A stretch of 64,000 nt of DNA, from the NCBI GenBank assembly GCA_905250025.1, contig CAJNOJ010000013.1:496001-560000 (forward strand), written 5' to 3'. Below the pieces are notes generated by a model that was not told the DNA's origin, did not search any database, and saw nothing but the letters and a program-made list of their open reading frames with translations. Positions 15,365 through 38,451 of the stretch are shown here, piece by piece; the stretch's first letter is position 1; each line of letters begins with the position of its first letter. Both the position numbers and the translations under genes were made by a program. Origin of the DNA: Adineta ricciae (taxonomy: Eukaryota; Rotifera; Eurotatoria; Adinetida; Adinetidae).

Positions 15365-15531
15365 ACTTTACATTGAAACACGAAATAATGTGATATACAT
15401 AAAAATCAGATTGGATTATTTGACGAGAGTATTGATTTTCAATCGAGAGTGGTACATTCTGAAGAGGATTATTCATCGATCTTCGCTAAACAAAACAAAA
15501 TGAATAGATCGAGAGGAAGATTGTGTTCTTT

Positions 15532-16905
15532 CTATTTACGTTTTTTTGTGACGGTTCGGTGCAAATTAGTAATTCGTTTAAATAATTGCTTCTCATTTTT
15601 ATAACAATCGAAGTCGAGCTCATCATCATCGTTGATCTTGGTGTTCTCTATTGTATGGTATCGTCGTTTGATCTGCTGTTCGGTATTATTCGATGAAAAG
15701 TTTTTCACTGATGTCTGATCGATTCCTAATTGCTTGAGAAGTTCGTTGAATCGATCGGATGTGACATGATCGGGTAATGCAATGGGATGAACACGAGTAG
15801 GAGAGATTTGTTTAATAAATGTACATATTTCGTTATAAGACGAATGTAGAGAATAGCAAAGACGATAGAAATCAATGCTGATTTGAATTAGCGGCGATTG
15901 AAAGTGTTGCTGCTGCTGTAATGTAAACCAAAGAACGGAAAGTACGATCTGAAAAAGAAGAAACCGTATGAAAATTCATCTGTCAGAAAAAAAACATCAG
16001 TAACACTTGCCTTGATTGATGGATTTGTATGTGAACATCTTGGCCAACATGCATGTAATCTTGTGCTTTGACCATCTGTAGTCAATGCTTGTTGAACTTG
16101 TGGTAAACAATCGTACAAATGATATTGCTCTGTGCTAACATGAATAGGAATTGCGAAATGTCGATATAATGACATGTAGATATATTCATAGCCGACGCGC
16201 GCTGATGTTTTCAAATAAAAGCGTCGATCTTGGTTCTGTTGAATGAAGTCAATCAACTTCTCACAAGCTTGTTCACGTTGAGGTAACTGACGAATTGACG
16301 GTTCAAAAAATGTCATATCAATGTAGAGACTATCGATGCGTTTTTTCGAAAGTATAACACGATGACGGTTGGATTGATGAGAATAAAGACGAAAATCACC
16401 GGTGTATAAAACAGTTCCATATAAACCTTCGAAAAGTAGCATTAACGAGCCCGGGCAATGACCTGCTCCAAAACAAGTCACTGTTACTGAACTATCTGAA
16501 GCAAAGAGAGAAATTGCAAAACAAAGTAGAGCGTGTGAATTTACTGTCATTCTCGGGATTTTGTATGGTAAATGGTTGATCAACATTAAGAACTGAATAG
16601 AATTGTGATAGGTGTTTGTATGCAGATAACTGGGAGAGAAAATATCGTGTGGCTTCTGAACAATATATACGGGTTGCACGATTGCTCTTGGCATAGTTCG
16701 AAAACGTTTCGTCATCTAAACCACGAAGATGATCTGTATGTCTTTGAAAACAAATGAGAAAAGAGTTCGTTTGAAAGTTTGAATAGAAAGTGTGCAGTTA
16801 CATATGTGAAATGAAGAAAACACGTGATGTTTGACAATTGTTTTGTGTAAACGAATCGACAGATATCCATGGATATTCAGTTAGAATTCCACCAAATGTA
16901 CACAT
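15532..16905 (-). CDS. DCLRE1C: Artemis-like beta-CASP nuclease
   Basis: Four exons: 16905..16802, 16741..16545, 16495..16011 and 15948..15532, 400 aa. Metallo-beta-lactamase motifs are complete: HIHTDH (H34, H36, D38, H39, made across the first intron), GHCPGS (H113), and TGDFR (D134). The beta-CASP part includes IDMTF (D160), GYEYIY, LHAC and CYSLHSSY near the end. The order and spacing follow Artemis rather than SNM1A/B. In vertebrates Artemis, activated by DNA-PKcs, opens hairpins and trims ends for non-homologous end joining. This protein stops about 85 residues after the HSSY motif, so it lacks the long regulatory tail of the 692-aa human protein. The third intron uses a GC donor (AAG|GCAAGT). 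An in-frame stop directly upstream fixes the start region. Confidence 0.9.
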
Positions 16906-17347
16906 GTTTGTTCGATGTTAGAGGAATCCAATATGATAAATAATAGTATCGAATGTTATTACACAAGAGTTAGGCAATACTCTCAGTTCTGTTTTTGCTT
17001 TGGTGGACTTTTATACCCAGTCAAAAGCCATGTGGATAGAGAACGCTATGACTGAAATCATGTGACTTAGCTTTTTTTCTCAGTATTTTCATGTTTTTCA
17101 TTTCAAAAATTGCCTAAAAGAATCTTCGCACGTGACAACGTAACAGAGAGAAGAGAAAACAAAGTCTAGTTTATGATTCAGACGTTGAAAAGTCCTGTGA
17201 AGTGAACCACTGGGGCAGAAATTGATAAGTTGATTCTTTTGTTGACATCCATTTGATTTTTTTCTCTTTTGGAGAAAAATAGAAAAGATACGCCGTTCTA
17301 AAAAAACACATACATATAAAATTTGGCAGTGCTATCGAATCCAATAC

Positions 17348-18903
17348 TTACTGATCATCGTCGAAATAATCTTTCGTGATGGTCTTACGAACAAATGCAC
17401 AAAATTCACTAAGAAATGCTAAAAACGAACTCGAACTCCATGTGCGCTAGGAGAACAAAGAATCGTGAGGTTCCAAAAGATCGAAGGGAACTTTCTTACC
17501 GCACGTGTCTCGATATCCTTGATGAGTAATGGATGTATTTGACGAACAATACCATAATCATTGCGGAAACCCAAAAGAATCTGATCAATGCCTGTTAGAA
17601 AACATTGTGACCACCATTTTGCATACTTTCGAGCACTACATAAAAAGACTCGAAGTAAATATCTTCTCTCAATATTTGATTTCTTACGTTGATGTATGCA
17701 ATTCTAACATATTCTCTGCATAAACTAATTTAATCTCCACAAATGTTCGTTTCTTCCTCAATTTCGAGTTGATATTTGTAGAATTGAGTGTTGTTTGTAA
17801 ATCGTCACTTTCATCATCGATAATTGAATCCTTGGTACAAGCATCGATCTCACTACCGTACAGAAGTGTATGTACACCAAGGGTGGCTAAATTAACCAAC
17901 GAAAATAGTTTCTTTGGCGATGGAAACAATGGTGGAGTTTCTAAAACGTAAACATCTCTTTGTAGGTTATTATATAGAATTTCAAAGCATAAGTCTTAAT
18001 TCCTTACACATCCTAGCGGTGTAAGAAATAATTCTCACATACCTGAACAGAGATAATCTTCGAACTTATGTCCCCAGTAACACATTCGCTTCTCGATAGG
18101 TGTTTGACCGAATTCAATTGCTAGTTCAGTTTCGGTATGAACGACGTGAAAGAAATGAGCGCCACGATAACGTATAACAGCAATGCGCCAATCTGTTTCT
18201 TGATTGAATAAAGATGACATGATCTTCCGAATCGTTCCACGCCACCCAACAAAATCAAATGTAAATCTTTGATAAAATCATATGGACTCAGCAATAAATT
18301 TTCGGATCGATTTACTTACCGTCCTTTCTTATTGACAACAGTGGCTTTATGTCGACTGATCCACCAGAGCATCGCATCCAGCGATGTCGATGGTTCAGCT
18401 GGATTCAGATAAGCTGACCCAATATTTAAGTCGAATTCGATATTTAATTGTTTCAGTTGTCTGGTATCGTCAATATCGTAGATCAATCGTTTCAAATAAC
18501 GGAAGTCTTCGCGACATCGATTTGCATCAGAACGATCGGCTGTTGAAAAGTAACCAATATCTTTTAAATAGAACGAGATGTTCCGTCCGTGATATTTCGA
18601 CCAGTGAAGCACCGCTAAACTTGTTGGTGATATATATTTCTCGGGAAATTGTTCACACAAAATGAATACTGGAACATTTCGCTCGATCACTGCTGACAGT
18701 GGAAGTTGGACATCAACACAGACAACCTCCGCTTTACGATGATGCCTTTTCTTTTTAGTTTTCTCCTCGGAATTTGTTAGCATCGGTGCACAAGGTACGG
18801 TATTATTCGGTTGACAAGCATATTGTACTTGTCGAAATAGTTTGCCACGGCCTGTACCGTCCAGAAAAGTTTCATTGTTGAAATAAGTCAACGACGACGA
18901 CAT
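17348..18903 (-). CDS. DXO: DXO/RAI1 decapping exoribonuclease
   Basis: Five exons: 18903..18320, 18266..18043, 17940..17688, 17635..17500 and 17446..17348, giving 431 aa (human DXO has 396). Visible active-site motifs: GWRG (R204), YWGHKFE (E264), YGSEID (E300, D302) and VEIK (E338, K340), followed by KWWSQ and LLGFR. This family removes incomplete, non-canonical and NAD+ caps and then degrades the RNA 5' to 3'. The N-terminal third before LDAMLWWI is long and has a Lys/Arg/His-rich patch near residues 48-56. An acidic-polar insertion of about 30 residues lies between the SEID and VEIK strands. The gene sits 442 bp upstream of Artemis on the same strand. Confidence 0.9.
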
Positions 18904-21176: not shown

Positions 21177-22652
21177 ATGTTATTACATGAATATCGAATA
21201 TGCTTACCATTTACAGTTGAAGAGGTACCAGTTTATTTGAAATTAACCGGTCGAAATCGTCTTTCTTCTTATTCTTCTAGTACCACACCGGGCAACTTTA
21301 CATGATATGTAAACATTGTGAAATCGAATCAAGTAAAGACGAGGGTGTCGAAGTCGTTCGCAACGAAGCAATTACGAATGAAGACGGTTTAACAGGACAA
21401 TTAACAGAAAAACGTTTATATTTATCAAGGTTTGAACATCTATGTCGCCATTATTATACATTCTATTTTGGTTCATACTAGCCGTCTACCAACTTGGATT
21501 CGTTCTCTCATTCCTAATGTATTTTATATAACTGAAAAAGCAAGCAATTTCTATCCGTATACAACAACCGGTACGTTTTCTATGCGCTTTGATTTCGTCG
21601 TTCTATATGAAATGACTAAGGGATTGCTCTGATTGTTTCTTTTTGTAGAGTACACCGTAAGTGATTATTTGATGTTAATATGTTGCTTTTTCCCCAAAGA
21701 TCGCGCTTTAATGCTCGAGATTCATTATTGTATCTTCATTTTTTCTGCTGTTAATACCTTTGAACATAAAAAGAATTACAAAATTTGATCACCGCCGCTT
21801 GCGCTTTTTCATCCTTATCGATCGATGTGTCTATTTGTATGTGTGTGTGTGTGTGTGTGTGTACATGGTTGTTCGTCACGTTGGATTCTTCTGAGAAAAC
21901 GATGAATTCTCTTTCAATTTCAGTGTTCATTTCTACCACGTTTTTCAATCATGGTTGAAACACGTTATGAAAATAACAATGGAACAACAGAAAATGTAAG
22001 TCGATCTGTCTTTGTCTCTTTGATTGTCAATATTTATTCCTTTGATCTAGTGTCATCAACTATCACCAGAAGAATTAGCAATACGGAAAATGGAATATTT
22101 GGATATAGCATTAGAGAATGTACCAGATTACAAGTATAAAGAAAGTGAAGATCCATGTAAATATAAATCTACTAAAACAGGTCGTGGACCATTGGTGCCT
22201 AATTGGAGAGTAAGTTTTTCTTCTTCTTTAATACAAACAAAAACGTGTCCTGTGTCCCTTTTTTTTAAAAAGGAATTTATGAAACCAATTATGTGTGCAT
22301 ATAAGATTGTTCGCGTGCGTTTCGAAGTGTGGGGATTTCAAACACGAGTAGAAGACTTTACGCAACGTGTGAGTGCTTATGTCTGTGATCATGATCGATA
22401 TGTATGCATATGCTTTAGGCTGTTCGTGATATTCTAGTTCTTGCACATCGACAAGCATTCACATGGATGGATGAATGGTAAATGGAAATGCTATGATGTA
22501 GATCAGTTTCTTCAGTCTTTCCTTTCAGGTACGGAATGACTCTCGATCAGGTTCGAGAATATGAACGGGAAATGTTCGATCGAACGAATAGAAAAGTTCT
22601 CCAGACAACTCCAGCGCCAACAACGAATACGAGCACTACGAATTTCGATTAG
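21177..22652 (+). CDS. PITP: Class I phosphatidylinositol transfer protein
   Basis: Nine exons: 21177..21224, 21281..21429, 21482..21570, 21649..21656, 21924..21995, 22051..22209, 22273..22368, 22419..22477 and 22529..22652, total 267 aa (human PITPNA has 270). Landmarks: N-terminal EYRI.LP.TVEEY..GQLY, then EGVEV, the LPTW loop, ETRYENNNG, the KTGRGPL.PNW stretch characteristic of PITPs, MCAYK, WGFQ, and AHRQAFTWMDEW before the lid helix. Class I PITPs exchange PI and PC between membranes and feed phosphoinositide signalling. Exon 4 is only 8 nt, yet completes the conserved EYT before the next strand; every junction is GT-AG and in phase. A GT repeat lies in the intron before exon 5. It is the first gene in a head-to-tail row of four. 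Confidence 0.93.
21841..21862. repeat. (GT)n microsatellite in PITP intron 4
   Basis: Eleven GT units inside the 267 bp fourth intron of the PITP gene. Confidence 0.9.
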
Positions 22653-22901
22653 AAAACCCAGAAAAAAGCTTACATGTTGTGCAAATTTTTATCTTGAAAT
22701 ATTCAGATATATGTTGTCATCTTCTTCTTTTTTTAACCTGTCTTGTCATTTATTTTTGTTTTTGAAGAAAAAAAGAGATTCAATGTATAGATGTTCTCCA
22801 TAAAAGAAAAACTCCGTTTACTTTCTTCTCATTTCGATTCTGTCTATTGTGATTACGACAAAAGAATAAAAAGAAATATTTCCATATCTTATAGATATCC
22901 A

Positions 22902-24329
22902 ATGGCTGCTCAATCGACGCCTCCTTCTGCTTCTGCTTCTGCTTCGTCTCATTCTCAACAACAAATCGATTCATCCGAAAAAATCGCTCAACAATTTCTT
23001 TCCAATGCCAACGATTATTTTCGTTCGGATATTAAATGTACGTTCAATTCTCGTTTTTCTCCTTCTCTCAATAATATTTGATTGCAAATGTGTGCGGGAA
23101 ACCGAAGTACATGCTTCAATCAAGATGCACTTAGAAATTGAATAGCATTCTTAGCTTGATTATCATCTAGCCAACGACGAGGATTACTCATCTTTCTTCT
23201 AAATAACGTTTTAATCATATCAAATGATGAAATTTCATTTGGACCTATTGAATATTCGATGAGTTCAAACAGCAGAAAATTTCATTAATGAGATTAAATA
23301 TAGATGAGACTTGTTTTCGAACAATATGAGATTATAAAATTAGGAAGAAATCCTCTTTTGAACTTCAGCAGAAGAGAGAGAGAGGAGTGTCGCATTCTAA
23401 ACTTCATCCAATTCCCGACAAATCTCGAGTAGTCCGATTGGTAAAGTTAGTCGTAGGAAAATCGCTTATTTATCTAAGTAGAAAACGATGGAAATCAGAC
23501 ATATGCAAATAGTAACATCGAGATTATTAAACATTATATGAGACATGTCAGGAAACTTCTGTCAGTCAATCAAAAGCATCTTTTCGCTCGAAGTCCTTGA
23601 GAAGATCGGTATACTACTCCTTTTTAATTTCCGGATTAGTTGAGAACGAGAGAAATATTTTCCTTTCAGACTTTAATCATTGAATGCTTTGCAAAGAATC
23701 CACATCTCAAGTGATTTCCGGCAACTGAAAATATTCCTTCTCGACTTGACTAAACAATAATCTATTACATGATTGATATCATTCAATATGTGTCAGAGAG
23801 GTAGAAATGATGTAATTGATATTACTGCGCTTTTAATGATCACATCAACTAGCAATGCAAATGAGACTTTGGATGTGCGTAGAGATATGGAGAGAATAAT
23901 TGATCGTGCCTTCCCAATGTCATCGAGACGATAAGCGATTGTCTCGAAATCGAATTCTCTCATTTCTAATCAACTGAATTTTAGTGGTTACGAGTGACTA
24001 CGATTGTTTGATACAAATGAACAATGCTGCGTTGGATAAATACAATCAAATGCACCGAAAATTACAACACGTGAATACTTCTGTACGAACGATGAGTGAT
24101 AATAATTGTAAAGATAAGACAGATTATGCGAAAAGATTTCCTTGATTGTTTTATTTTTCTAGCGACAAAAATGTTGTCGACCTTTAGTCAATTGAATGAG
24201 ATTGAAGATGCGATGTCGAATCTGGAGTCGACAATTATGAAATTGGACGCGTATTCTCGTTCATTGGAAACTCAAGTGAAGAAATTCGAAAAAACATCCA
24301 ATTCAGCAGCACGGACAACATCGCCATGA
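22902..24329 (+). CDS. BLOC1S2: BLOC-1 subunit 2
   Basis: Exons 22902..23037, 23985..24107 and 24163..24329 give 141 aa (human 142). After a Ser/Ala/Gln-rich start the chain is a heptad-type coiled coil; SDYDCLIQMN and the C-terminal KLDAYSRSLE match the conserved BLOS2 signatures. BLOS2 is part of BLOC-1 and BORC, which act in lysosome-related organelle biogenesis and lysosome positioning. The first intron, 947 bp, is far longer than the others here. The start is preceded by TTATAG 7 nt upstream. The stop lies only 97 bp before the ATG of CDK5RAP1, with a long pyrimidine tract and no AATAAA in between. Confidence 0.88.
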
Positions 24330-24426
24330 AAAACAGAAACGATTTTTTTTGTCTTTTCGTCTTCTATTTTAATTTTTGTCATGTGATTTCAATGTCTTAC
24401 TGTTGTTTTCCTCTTCTTTTTTAAAG

Positions 24427-26484
24427 ATGATATCACGTTTGATACTTTCAAACTTGCCACATATACGATGCTTATCGACAGTAACCAATGTCTGGCGTGA
24501 GAAAGTCTCTCAAGGTCCTTCATTGAAATCTTTCATTGAACAAACGGTAAATCAACCATCATACGAAACTACTCTTCCACCATATCTCAACGATGTTGAA
24601 CCATTTGATCCGTTGAATCATGTCAAACGACGTGTCTATTTCGATGTATACGGTTGTCAGATGAATGAAAATGACACTGATATTGCCTATACATTTCTTA
24701 ATAAGCACGGCGGATATGAACGTGTCAATGATGAAAACGATGCTGATATTGTTCTGTAAGGATACGATGATGTCGTCGATGACTTTGCACTGTTTGCCTT
24801 TCTGTTCGTTTTAGATTAATGACATGTAGCATCCGGTATGTCAAAAATGATAGTTTTCTTCTTGAAATTGGAATGAGATTTTCTGTGTGATTAGTGAAGG
24901 TGCCGAACAGAAAATTTGGAAGAAACTACAATCACTCGGACATCGAAAAAAGACACGTTCGCCGCATGCACCACCATTTCAAATTGGTGTACTTGGTTGC
25001 ATGGCTGAACGGTTAAAAGAAAAATTGATCGAACGTGAAAAAGTTGTTGATGTCGTTTGTGGACCGGATGCTTATCGGTCTTTGCCAAACTTACTTGATC
25101 AAACCTTAGTCGAGTCAGATCAAAAAGGCATCAACACACTTCTATCTATCGATGAAACATATGCTGATATAACACCACTACGATATGATACAAATAATCG
25201 ACGTGCTTTTGTTTCAATTATGCGAGGGTGTAATAATATGTGTGCTTTTTGTATTGTACCGTTCACACGTGGACGAGAACGTAGTCGGTGAGTATGCATA
25301 GAGACATCTCAAGAAATTCGAACCAACTGCTATTGATTTATTTAGACCTATGAGCAGTATACTTGATGAACTCCGTTATCTTGTCGATCTAGGCATAAAA
25401 GGTAGTTTCATTCTAGATTTTAGTCATAAAATTTCTATCGTGTAAATAGATGTTACTCTACTCGGGCAAAATGTCAATAGTTATTGTGATAAATCTGAAG
25501 TAAACGTATCTTTACATACAACAAAAACACTATCAAGAGGATTCAAAGAGAATTACAAAACAAATCCCACTAAAGGTAAACATTTCCATCCTTTCATATG
25601 ATAAAAATATATGTGTATTAGGATCGATTCGGTTTGCTACACTTCTTGACCAAGCCTCACAAATCTCGCCTGAACTTCGAATACGTTTCACATCTCCACA
25701 TCCAAAAGATTTCCCGGATGACTTACTACATGTAAATCGTCACATCATACTGTTTTACTCCTCAACCTTTCATGTTTAGGTGATGTGCGATCGTTCAAAC
25801 ATTTGCAAATCAATTCATTTACCATGTCAAAGTGGTAGTACTCGAATACTTGGTAAATATTAACAAAAACCAAATTATTGATCATTTTGCATTTTCGATT
25901 CGTCTCTAGAATTGATGCGTCGTGGATACAGTAAAGAAGCGTATCTTTCGTTAGTCGAACATATTCGTTCAATTGTGCCAAATATTACTTTCTCTTCCGA
26001 TTTTATTGCTGGTTTTTGTACAGAAACTGACGATGATCATCGTGACACATTAGACGTGATTGAACGCGTACGATATAATTTTCTCTATTCGTTTCCGTAT
26101 TCGATGCGAGAAAAAACAAAAGCACATTATCATTTAAATGATGATGTATCATTCGATATTAAATCTCGACGACATTTGGAAATTCATGAACTATTTCGAC
26201 ATCATGCGCATTTGATAAATCAATCTTACATTGGCCAAATCCAATTATGTCTTGTTGAAGGGCCTAGTAAACGCGCACCCGATTCGGAAGTCGCCGGAAG
26301 AAATGATTTCAATACAAAAGTCATCTTTTCGAAATATTTATCGAATAGTGGAGAAAGTTTTCAACCCGGTGATTACGTTCAAGTTCGCATTGATTCAGCA
26401 ACGTCGCAAACATTGAAAGGCACACCAATAAAACGGACGACGTTGAAAGAATTTGATTCTTCGTTTTTGAATGTTTGTTGTTGA
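24427..26484 (+). CDS. CDK5RAP1: CDK5RAP1, tRNA ms2 methylthiotransferase
   Basis: Eight exons: 24427..24755, 24815..24835, 24895..25287, 25346..25401, 25450..25575, 25622..25731, 25780..25852 and 25910..26484, 560 aa (human 587). The MiaB-type N-terminal domain offers three cluster cysteines (C77 in YGCQMN, C114 in TCSIRE, C152 in LGCMAE). The radical-SAM triad CNNMCAFC is at 229-236, followed by [16 protein letters not shown] and LPCQSGS. The C-terminus holds a TRAM-like RNA-binding region. The enzyme adds a methylthio group to i6A37 of mitochondrial tRNAs, and the first 20 residues look like a mitochondrial presequence. Exon 2 is 21 nt. The start codon is directly preceded by AAAG after a T-rich run, an ideal trans-splice acceptor. 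Confidence 0.95.
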
Positions 26485-26588
26485 TGTTATTGAGAAAACC
26501 TAGATGAATAATACATGTAAAAGGTGCATATCAATAGAGTTAAATGTTTCAAACAATGTTCTAGATACTCTTTGAGAAGAACACAGAT

Positions 26589-27783
26589 ATGTCTTTAATT
26601 TCCTTCACATCTCCATACTTTGCCTCATTGAATCTTATCCATAGTCACGTACTCGAGCGTTTTGATCGTGCTGGAATTAAAAATCTAACAGATCTAGCAG
26701 TTTACAGTCCACTTGAAATTTCGTTGAAATTTCGTTACTCTCTGAATGATGCCGAAATGATTCTTGACAAACTTCTTTCGATTTTAATCAGTCAACCAAA
26801 AAATGTTTATGATATGTTAACAGAAACATCATCATTGTATATTTTAACCAAATTACCGACACTTAATCGATATCTCAATGGTGGTCTACGACGCGGATCG
26901 TTGATCGAATTATGTGGATCATGGGGTACAAACTACGATTAAATTATCGACCGTTTTTCTCTTTTATGACAATTTTAGGTAGCGGTAAAACACAGTTTTG
27001 CTTACAACTAACTGCCCAATGTTGTTTGATGGGTTTACGAACGATCTATATCGATACTGAACATACATTCTCATCAATTCGTCTTTTGAATATGATTGGT
27101 AGTTTTGATAGTAAGCAAGAACATTTACTCGAACTGGTACGGACAGAGATGATCTTCGATGCGGATTCTTTGATGAAAATCTTGGCAACTATTGAAAATG
27201 AACTAGAAGAAGAGGTGAAAAGTGATAATAGAGATCAATGTCCTGCTTTATTGATTGTCGATTCCATTGCTGCTCCGCTAAGAATGTCAACGATGGGTTA
27301 CAGTCGAGAAAACATTCTATTACTATTTACCGATTGTGCGAAACGACTTGCTCGACGATACAATCTTCTTGTCTTTGGTATGAGTACTTGAAATGCAACA
27401 TTTCATCATTTAGTTCACTTTCAGTAACCAATCAAGTAACTACGAAACGTCGTTCAACTGTTTTAACAGAAAAACAAGATGATAACAAGAAACTAGGAAA
27501 TGATTTTTATACTAGTGTTGCCTTGGGAAAAGCTTGGTCTCATTCGGTGAACGTGCGTCTTGCCATTTCCTATCATGGTGATACACGCCGACAATTAATT
27601 GTTGGTAAATCAATCGAATCGCCAGCGTATACAATAGCATTTCGCATATTAACGAACGGGTTAGAAGAAATTGAAGAAGATTTCCAAACGAATACACAAC
27701 GAAAAGTTTTCGAAAAACAATCAACACGGCGTTTGATTCAAGCAGACGAAATGCATCTTATCGGAAAACAATTACGGCCTTAG
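26589..27783 (+). CDS. RAD51B: RAD51B-like recombinase paralogue
   Basis: Exons 26589..26925, 26979..27377 and 27425..27783 give 364 aa (human about 350-384). An N-terminal helical domain leads to LPTLNRYLNGGLRRGSL and Walker A GSWGSGKT (110-117), split by the first intron. Walker B reads LLIVDSIA, followed by TNQVTTK and the C-terminal LGKAWSHSVNVRL and RRQLIVGKS, which fit RAD51B better than XRCC3 or RAD51C. RAD51B acts in the BCDX2 complex supporting RAD51 filament assembly during homologous recombination. The stop of CDK5RAP1 is 104 bp upstream; a clear AATAAA follows this gene at 27835, the only canonical one I noted in the four-gene row. Confidence 0.87.
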
Positions 27784-27834
27784 AATCAGTCATCTATCAG
27801 ATAATTTATTTTTCTAGAGAATATGTCTTTACTA

Positions 27835-27840
27835 AATAAA
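27835..27840 (+). promoter_or_regulatory. Poly(A) signal AATAAA after RAD51B
   Basis: Lies 51 nt after the RAD51B stop and 40 nt before the stop of the convergent ZIP gene, so the two 3' ends nearly overlap. Confidence 0.6.
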
Positions 27841-27879: not shown

Positions 27880-29134
27880 TTAAGCCCATCGCCCAATAAC
27901 AGCCATGGCGGCTACACCCAAATATAAAGCAACGAAATAGGCAAATTTTAATCGTTTACTTAAACGATTGAATCCATGAGCATTTACACCCATCTCGGCT
28001 GTTATTAAATTAACTAAAGCTACATAAATAAGAATACCAGCAGCAAATGAATCTAGTATACCAGTGGACAGTAAATAGGAAACAGATTTGGGATTATATG
28101 TTCCAGAATGTATACCGATGCCAATAGCAATACCAATAGGGGTCGTTAGCGAGAAGAATATAACCATAAAAATGGCAGACTTGATTGATGCTGATTTCAA
28201 ATTAGCAATTTGTGCACCAAGTGCAATTGCTTCGAAAAATTGATGAAAACAAAGCGCAATAAATAGAGCAACAAATGAATCTGTTGCTGTTCCCAATGTT
28301 AGTCCAATCAAGATGGAATGAAGTGCAATACCAAATTCCAATAGGTAAGTACTTATTTTGGTGCTATGTCCACTGTTTTGAAGCGCTAAGCCATGATGAT
28401 GATGGTTCGATTCTGCGCCTTCTTCGACTGATGTTAATGGAGGTTTCACTTGAATTATCTCCGAATGTTGATGCTGATGATGATAATGTACCTCGGGCGT
28501 ATGTGCATGGGCATGTCCGCCATGTGAGTGGTGCGTGTGCCATATAGAGTTCGTCCGACCTCTATCACTGTTAGCTTGTGACGCTCTGTCAAGTTCTTCC
28601 GTCTTCTCTGCCGGCGCTTTCACATTCGTGCTTTCCACCCCATGAGAATGTTTCAAAGTCATCGAACGATATTTTTCGTGTGCAAGAAACTCTATCAACT
28701 GCATTCCAAGAATACCTAACATAGCAAATAGCCCAGCATACGCTCCGTACACATTCCACGAGTCAGGTAAACAAGGATCAGTCAATGTCTCCATAGCATC
28801 TGGTAGAATATGCACAAATCCAGTGGCTAACACCACACTAGAAGTAAAAATAAGAAAATAATATGCAAAACTTGTCACATTTTGACACATACCCGCTGCC
28901 AAAAAACTTTCCGAAGTTGAGGACAATTGGATTGATACGAAGAGCTTTGAACCGGTTCGAAACTACAGACAAAGACGCTCCAACGAAGGAAACCACTAGG
29001 AGAACAAAGACCGAGACGATATGAAGTGTCAGGTTATAAGCTTGATTGATTTCTTCATCGCTTAGAAAACAAGCATTATTGTCACTGCCACTTGCATTGC
29101 TAGTTTCATTGCTAGTTTCATTGCTACTGTCCAT
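27880..29134 (-). CDS. ZIP-family zinc/iron transporter
   Basis: Exons 29134..28893 and 28837..27880 give 399 aa. Eight hydrophobic segments are visible. TM2 contains FGSGVVLATGFVHILPDA; the variable cytoplasmic loop has a His-rich cluster around residues 181-205 and a second HHHH at 225-228. TM4 carries HSILIG (H254) and TM5 carries HQFFEA (H279), the metal-binding helices of SLC39/ZIP transporters that move Zn2+ or Fe2+ into the cytosol. The N-terminus is Ser/Asn/Thr-rich and luminal. It resembles the ZIP1-3/plant IRT subfamily more than the LIV-1 group, as no HEXPHE motif is present. It is convergent with RAD51B (96 bp between stops). Confidence 0.93.
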
Positions 29135-33034: not shown

Positions 33035-33615
33035 ATGAAGAACTTGAATCCTATATACGATGCTCTCAATTTACAAAAATGGCCAAGATCTCATTCAAAT
33101 GAAACCTCAAATACTGTTCTCAATCAAAATGTTCGTCGTCAATTGCATACAGAAGCTTTAACGGAAGAGAATTTTCATCAAGTTCATCTATCTCATCGAA
33201 GAATAGAAGACTTTCCAAGTGAAGTACTGCTTGATTTCAATCAAGTATCTATGTATTTCTGAGAAAAGCAATCTTTCAACTAGCAATTAGTCATAAGTCG
33301 TTAATGCGATCAAGCATCTATCCTATCTCTGATAGTATCATCGCCTATACTGATAAGAATGCAGATTATCTGATTTTGGCTTTGTTTTTTTTTGTGTTAG
33401 ATCTCACTATTCACGATATCGATCGATTAAAATCGATGAATGTGCATACAATTCAAGATCTACTCGGCCGTTGTCTTATACATGATACATTAGATGAATT
33501 TCACATGTTTCTTCTGAATGGTTTTCGTTTGAGCGAAAAGACTGCGTCTGGTATAACTAATTTATTCAGCCAATGGATAGACTATAATTTAAATGGTATT
33601 CAATCAAATCATTGA
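33035..33615 (+). CDS. Divergent BAF (BANF1)-like protein
   Basis: Model: exon 1 33035..33218 and exon 2 33401..33615, 132 aa. Exon 2 reads IDRLKSMNVHTIQDLLGR followed by DEFHMFLL and a final helix with LFSQWIDY, which fits the helix-hairpin-helix and C-terminal helices of barrier-to-autointegration factor, a small dimeric DNA-bridging protein of the nuclear lamina. The first half is polar, without clear similarity. The weak point is the donor: the strong-looking GTATCT at 33245 is in the wrong phase for exon 2, so a GTGAAG donor at 33219 was used. The family call rests on a short segment. The gene follows the Ly6 gene closely. Confidence 0.5.
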
Positions 33616-37845: not shown

Positions 37846-38451
37846 CTAGTCAAGTTTCTTTGCTTGAAAACCAGCTGCATGAACAGTTTTCACGACCAAA
37901 CTCGTGTCTATCACATTTTTTGTGATTAACTTCGCTTGTCCAGTTTCCAGATTAACATGTACACTAAGTACACCCTCAAGTTTCCGTAGTGCTTGAATAA
38001 CCGCTGAACGGCAACCTTCGCAATGCATTCCGACGATCTGCCAATACGTAATAACGACGCCTGCAGTATGATTGAAATCATTTCTTGCGAATTGATTATT
38101 GTACATTCGTAAAAGTTCTGGTGATAACGATAGAAGTACTGTTACAAGTACAATCATTGTAAAGTGTTTTTTCGATGGACGATAACGATAGAATGAATAA
38201 GTTAAAGATATAATTGTTAGTGAAATAAATATCGGTCGATATGGTAATAGAAATGTGTTCAATCCTGCGCAACCAATTCCGAATAGATTCAGCAATAATT
38301 GTATGACACAACAGGATGATATTAAAAGACCGCCAACAAGACCATTAATCCAGTTCATATGTGTCATTTCTGTTTTTTTCTGCAACGAAGATTTCATATT
38401 CATTAAAAAAATTAATAGAAGAAGAATCATCACAATGAAATCAATGTTCAT
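37846..38451 (-). CDS. MerT-MerP-like fusion, heavy-metal transport protein
   Basis: One intronless frame of 201 aa. An N-terminal hydrophobic helix is followed by a MerT-type segment: vicinal CC at 47-48 inside the next helix, C61, then PYRPIF at 70-75 and another helix, the motif set of mercuric transporters. The last 70 residues form a heavy-metal-associated domain with GMHCEGC (C144, C147) and the usual strand-helix pattern. Bacterial MerT takes Hg2+ from MerP through such cysteine pairs; a fused MerTP is known in bacteria. Here the metal is not proven and could be copper or another thiophile. The start is 59 bp downstream of the RNPC3 stop on the same strand, with an AG (TATATAG) in between. 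Confidence 0.75.
   Translation of the reverse strand: MNIDFIVMILLLLIFLMNMKSSLQKKTEMTHMNWINGLVGGLLISSCCVIQLLLNLFGIGCAGLNTFLLPYRPIFISLTIISLTYSFYRYRPSKKHFTMIVLVTVLLSLSPELLRMYNNQFARNDFNHTAGVVITYWQIVGMHCEGCRSAVIQALRKLEGVLSVHVNLETGQAKLITKNVIDTSLVVKTVHAAGFQAKKLD

Follow-up and report, generated by a model that had tools for sequence, protein, structure and literature searches.

Gene row and intergenic gaps

A 64,000-nucleotide stretch of the Adineta ricciae genome (contig CAJNOJ010000013.1, positions 496,001 to 560,000; hereafter the window) was analysed around a row of four closely spaced genes, encoding a phosphatidylinositol transfer protein (PITP), BLOC1S2, CDK5RAP1 and RAD51B, which may form an operon resolved by spliced leader (SL) trans-splicing. 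The four genes lie in tandem on the + strand, and the distances from stop to ATG are 249, 97 and 104 bp (gaps 0, 1 and 2, respectively). An original prediction, made from the letters of the window, had described BLOC1S2, CDK5RAP1 and RAD51B as an operon-like row on one strand, separated by 97 and 104 bp, with PITP 249 bp upstream as a possible fourth member, and these coordinates agreed with ours. No functional connection among the genes of the row is known to us.

PITP (21177–22652, +; PF02121, E 9.1e-99) is represented by a gene model with an uncertain start codon and is the possible first cistron. Gap 0 (22653–22901, +) contains an AATAAA at 22865–22870, which had gone unmentioned in the original prediction, and an acceptor-like AG that ends at 22894, 7 nt 5′ of the next ATG. 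BLOC1S2 (22902–24329, +; PF10046, E 2.1e-17) is an open model with no internal stop and with exons at 22902–23037, 23985–24107 and 24163–24329; its first intron (23038–23984) measures 947 bp, compared with a median of 56 bp for predicted introns, and an Rfam scan of the window, this intron included, gave no matches at gathering scores. Gap 1 (24330–24426, +) is T-rich and holds only two AG dinucleotides, and its acceptor-like AG ends at 24426 and abuts the CDK5RAP1 ATG; the T-rich tract ending in AAAG that had been reported directly 5′ of this ATG is present.

CDK5RAP1 (24427–26484, +), a predicted tRNA methylthiotransferase with the Pfam domains UPF0004, Radical_SAM and TRAM, has exons at 24427–24755, 24815–24835, 24895–25287, 25346–25401, 25450–25575, 25622–25731, 25780–25852 and 25910–26484. 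The choice of this name over that of another methylthiotransferase is our reading of the domain set and the sequence. Gap 2 (26485–26588, +) contains an acceptor-like AG that ends at 26564, 24 nt 5′ of the RAD51B ATG, and two candidate donors at 26517 and 26524. RAD51B (26589–27783, +; Rad51, PF08423, E 3e-22) has exons at 26589–26925, 26979–27377 and 27425–27783, and its best PDB match was RAD51 homolog 2 (E 2.6e-25), which we take to be RAD51B. An AATAAA lies 3′ of this last gene (27835–27840, +) and none lies in gaps 1 and 2, as the original prediction had it.

Acceptor-like sites upstream of the start codons

The gene finder was trained on the window plus 200 kb of contig C1, and an acceptor matrix was derived from 466 predicted introns. 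In each of the three gaps a single AG near the ATG scored highly: that of BLOC1S2 (at −7) reached 5.67, that of CDK5RAP1 (at 0) 6.44 and that of RAD51B (at −24) 4.24 (57th, 74th and 29th percentiles, respectively, among the 466 predicted cis acceptors); sites upstream of PITP scored 5.92 at −63 and 3.88 at −3. These three scores were attained by 2.3%, 1.0% and 7.4%, respectively, of random noncoding 30-nt windows (n = 3577). When the gap ends were dinucleotide-shuffled, scores this high arose with P values of 0.016 (gap 0), 0.0795 (gap 1) and 0.0215 (gap 2), so that gap 1, although stressed in the original prediction, was the weakest of the three by this measure because of its richness in T.

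No donor at or above the 5th percentile was found at intron distance inside gaps 0 and 1 (for gap 0, at least 38 nt before the acceptor), and a local cis-intron in the 5′ untranslated region (UTR) therefore does not explain the acceptors in those two gaps. For gap 2, use of the AG within a single gene was considered: CDK5RAP1 and RAD51B would then form a single gene, or a fusion made by alternative splicing, with the stop lost and the frames joined through an intron at 26473–26564. The gene finder favoured such a fused model of 929 amino acids at two settings, but the donor is weak (13th percentile), the split model was behind by only 4.7 log units, and Pfam assigns the two halves to enzyme families that are not related. 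Flatworm operons have likewise been mis-annotated as chimeric genes, with models that span several cistrons (PMC12582326). We regard a fused gene at this locus as highly improbable.

Candidate spliced leader genes in the genome

The 130-Mb assembly (1033 contigs) was searched with a 23-nt leader, the Rotifera consensus as given in PMC3795323. The genome contained 44 matches (41 with one mismatch and three with two) compared with none for a reversed-pattern control, and the spliced leader sequence is TGCTTATTACAACTTACCAAGAG; the genomic SL exon begins with T and the published leader with G. The matches were clustered on a few contigs (C2, C6, C8, C43, C76, C77, C79, C99, C112 and C146), frequently in divergent pairs spaced by about 130 bp. 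The loci of 20 of the 44 matches were read; they look like SL-RNA genes, the leader in all 20 running into a GTAAA donor and then into about 80 nt that resemble one another from locus to locus. The leader trans-splicing of bdelloids, which the original prediction had brought in as background, is matched by a bdelloid-type SL in this genome. Together with the short introns (median 56 bp), this leader accords with a bdelloid rotifer. A pattern search for a second leader class, run around one known SL, returned only that exon and three two-mismatch variants, and an unrelated leader would escape such a search. Rotifer contamination of other sequence collections was looked for and not seen: the rotifer SL pattern gave no match in viral contigs, and a RAD51B query found no relative in prokaryote contigs.

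Spacing and acceptors in the 264-kb sample

A curated sample of 90 genes of at least 100 amino acids in 264 kb (23 in the window and 67 on C1) was used for comparison and provided 49 tandem gaps. Models shorter than 100 amino acids were dropped, two TBC1D32-like halves in the window were merged, which removed an 87-bp gap, and CDT1/FKBP and SPC-like/VAMP were split on C1. HAP40 and a zinc finger gene on C1 were left out as a close pair, the second half having no visible ATG, and a zero-gap pair on C1 was set aside as a model error with a true gap of 296 bp. The names TBC1D32-like, CDT1, FKBP, SPC-like and VAMP for curated genes are our assumption; the labels HAP40, HAD-like, YIF-like, INTS9 and RNPC3 are likewise assumed or have partial support from Pfam. 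Gene-finder runs that were over-spliced, that fused more genes or that had very cheap gene boundaries (mostly spurious open reading frames) were kept outside the counts. The gene finder, having fused CDK5RAP1 and RAD51B, may hide further short gaps.

The 97- and 104-bp gaps are the two shortest of the 49 and are adjacent. Adjacent gaps this short occurred in 2.4% of gap permutations (p = 0.024) and a run of three gaps of at most 249 bp in 6.3%, both figures being post hoc, as the row had been picked for its closeness. Published thresholds for operon gaps are given as 300 bp in flatworms (PMC12582326) and 250 bp in chaetognaths (PMC12460157). An acceptor score of at least 4 within 30 nt of the ATG was found for 6/13 close tandem genes (gap below 310 bp), as against 9/36 far tandem and 2/34 far divergent genes (together 11/70); six close divergent genes were excluded from this comparison and from that of AATAAA below. 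The difference between close tandem and far-spaced genes gave p = 0.010 by the Mann–Whitney test and p = 0.022 by Fisher's test. A general operon signal in the sample is suggestive only, and the present row drives part of it.

Polyadenylation signals

The missing AATAAA in gaps 1 and 2 had been offered as a sign of an operon, an argument that was not borne out. In Caenorhabditis elegans each cistron of an operon undergoes its own cleavage and polyadenylation, and 3′-end cleavage of the upstream pre-mRNA comes ahead of trans-splicing of the downstream gene (PMC5025045), so that a poly(A) signal is to be expected in operon gaps. Moreover, 37/87 gene ends in the sample had no AATAAA, and with absence so commonplace its lack in two gaps says little. 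The motif was present, in the gap or the first 300 nt, at the ends of 7/13 close tandem, 21/36 far tandem and 22/38 convergent genes.

Within the row, AATAAA occurs in gap 0 only, where 29 nt separate its start from the end of the acceptor AG. An AATAAA starting 20–60 nt 5′ of the ATG was found for 3/13 close tandem genes compared with 2/70 far-spaced genes (p = 0.026, post hoc) and for one of the six close divergent genes. A poly(A) site beside the acceptor, the design of Ciona and of the C. elegans SL1-type operons, would fit this arrangement.

Interpretation of the row as a probable operon

With modest confidence, we lean towards the row being a co-transcribed operon resolved by SL trans-splicing. 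From the order of the genes and the sites between them we infer that a single promoter, upstream of either BLOC1S2 or PITP, would give rise to a polycistronic pre-mRNA, that each upstream cistron would be cleaved and polyadenylated, and that the SL exon from the genome's SL RNA would be joined to the AG at −7, 0 and −24, so becoming the 5′ end of each downstream cistron. PITP is a possible fourth member, with the acceptor at −7 and the AATAAA in its gap. Of the case first made for an operon, the layout stood, and the bdelloid SL and the acceptor-like sites at all three ATGs added to it, while the appeal to the missing AATAAA fell away.

Several observations weigh against this reading. When the row was left out of the acceptor comparison, 3/10 close tandem genes remained (p = 0.069); with a cut at 200 bp p was 0.031 (n = 6) and with a cut at 150 bp 0.082 (n = 5), Fisher's test being not significant at either. 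Acceptors before ATGs were not in general excess: in an earlier set of 89 genes 18% scored at least 4, compared with 17% after stops, and windows 100–130 nt upstream reached this score in 16% of 74 cases. Read antisense, the bases before the ATG did so in 11%, which leaves a small excess for the sense strand. Convergent gaps were as short as 74 bp, and three divergent pairs were 17, 17 and 77 bp apart in the models, some of whose starts may be wrong; tight spacing thus occurs in all orientations and is not special to tandem pairs. The two local donors of gap 2 make a 5′-UTR cis-intron of 41–48 nt possible there. No canonical poly(A) signal was found in gaps 1 and 2: gap 1 had none of the 13 poly(A)-signal hexamers tried and gap 2 had weak variants only.

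To these is added the lack of a second copy with which the row might be compared, as a search of the genome matched CDK5RAP1 only here and RAD51B at this locus only, besides a weak 41-residue match on C106. The search with the Pfam family of BLOC1S2 returned one exon here and, on C189, a weak match that contains an internal stop, both below the cut-off. Paralogues of PITP and of the zinc transporter (ZIP) next to it occur at other places, none of them on a common contig among the matches listed. An ohnologous second copy of the row was accordingly rejected, CDK5RAP1 and RAD51B being found in a single place and the listed PITP and ZIP paralogues not being co-located. RAD51L1 (K10869) is presumed here to be the same gene as RAD51B. 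Two copies of RAD51L1 are entered for A. vaga in a table of PMC6264785.

The acceptors would also be real, with no shared pre-mRNA behind them, if every gene were driven by a promoter of its own, located within the gap or at the end of the gene before it, and the transcripts were trans-spliced one by one. The SL is reported on more than 50% of transcripts in two bdelloid species (PMC1925144), so that an acceptor before an ATG is by itself no proof of co-transcription; far tandem genes have such acceptors as well (the 9/36 above), and the close divergent pairs, if real, would mean that promoters can be very compact. On the other hand, 97 bp would have to hold a 3′ end, a promoter and an outron, unless the promoter lies in the preceding gene, and acceptors are commoner in close than in far tandem genes. 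Separate promoters combined with SL addition are, in our judgement, a serious but rather unlikely explanation.

Ordinary compaction, that is, separate genes with ordinary capped 5′ ends and AG sites that arose by chance, appears less likely still. Intergenic distances are short in these animals, with medians of 0.8 kb in A. vaga and 0.6 kb in A. ricciae (PMC5916493, Table 1, as we read its column order), convergent gaps of 74–121 bp occur, the shuffle P value of gap 1 is 0.0795, and windows after stops have acceptors about as often as those before ATGs. However, acceptor-like sites stand at all three ATGs of the row, and their shuffle P values combined by Fisher's method (worked by hand) gave approximately 0.002.

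Other tandem pairs and side loci

Three further close tandem genes had acceptors of at least 4. These were an INTS9-like gene (gap 174 bp, acceptor 5.72), an FKBP-like (nuclear) gene after a CDT1-like gene on contig C1 (L046, joined positions 151962–155280, −; gap 239 bp, acceptor 7.13) and a VAMP-like gene after an SPC-like gene on C1 (gap 296 bp, acceptor 4.17). In the CDT1–FKBP pair 28 nt separate the start of AATAAA from the end of the acceptor AG (worked by hand). The gene finder had fused CDT1 and FKBP, as it did CDK5RAP1 and RAD51B, and had mis-modelled the SPC-like and VAMP genes as touching. Weaker acceptors preceded the C1 gene at 77499 (gap 257 bp, 3.55) and the gene that follows one for an RRM protein and encodes a MerT/HMA protein (gap 143 bp, 3.21). 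Only sites scoring below 2 were seen in the LSM14 to HAD-like gap (129 bp), before the gene at 33035 in the window (gap 133 bp), before the C1 genes at 198347 and 62712 (gaps 231 and 252 bp, respectively) and, near the predicted ATG, for a DNA-repair metallo-beta-lactamase (Artemis/SNM1-like) after an RAI1/DXO-like gene (15469–18903, −; gap 265 bp).

The MerT/HMA gene (window 37846–38367, −), 143 bp downstream of that for the RRM protein, is a single-exon gene of 173 amino acids with a MerT-like half (E 1.4e-7, 32.0 bits compared with a cut-off of 32.9) and an HMA domain (E 1.1e-12). Its product resembles proteins of the mercury-transport type, and the animal may have acquired the gene horizontally. 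In C1:300001–500000 (L031–L050), five similar predicted peptides of the form MIIF[AT]VHQSNAAATDRKPLLD..., 62–75 amino acids long, were found over 25 kb on both strands, at joined positions 28689, 34726, 39208, 53067 and 53475.

Comparison with known operons and significance

The row resembles the SL2-type operons of C. elegans in its single strand, in the little functional kinship of its genes and in the acceptor-like site at the downstream gene. Intercistronic distances are given as about 100 bp in C. elegans, with a median of 111–112 bp in C. briggsae (PMC7986045). It differs from those operons in that a single leader, the known one that the search was aimed at, was found here, that gaps 1 and 2 have no AATAAA and that the operon is a candidate only. 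A single SL is described for Ciona (PMC7986045), and in the operons of Ciona and the SL1-type operons of C. elegans the poly(A) site abuts the acceptor with no intercistronic sequence (PMC12582326). Gap 0 and the CDT1–FKBP gap are similar, with AATAAA 29 and 28 nt, respectively, before the end of the acceptor AG, so that cleavage, at a position predicted here from sequence, would fall at or near the acceptor; gaps 1 and 2, in contrast, have no such arrangement.

In the chaetognath P. gotoi, a fellow member of the Gnathifera, operon candidates were defined by gaps below 250 bp, 18% of genes are placed in operons and no operon-specific leader is described (PMC12460157); those operons are backed by SL reads and involve three leaders, whereas the rotifer row is known from its sequence. 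The RFC140-flp operon of Hydra is comparable as a pair of genes with a putative poly(A) signal, a T-rich tract and an acceptor in the gap (PMC3273482), but it has 417 nt from stop to acceptor and was tested by a two-reporter construct. A 2021 paper has operons as not reported in rotifers, and rotifer operons are entered as ND in PMC2481426; among the literature matches listed, none names a bdelloid operon in its title or at the start of its abstract.

It is conceivable, though doubtful at present, that bdelloids have genome-wide SL-resolved operons of unrelated housekeeping genes that share one SL, some of them with a poly(A) site at or beside the acceptor as in Ciona. Equally tentative is the joint proposition that such a class exists and that the present row is among its clearest candidates in the 264 kb. 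If true, an operon in a bdelloid rotifer would be unusual for the animal group. A class of such operons would extend operons within the Gnathifera beyond the chaetognaths, would speak to the question of whether SL trans-splicing leads to operons, and would caution that gene models of bdelloids may join separate cistrons.

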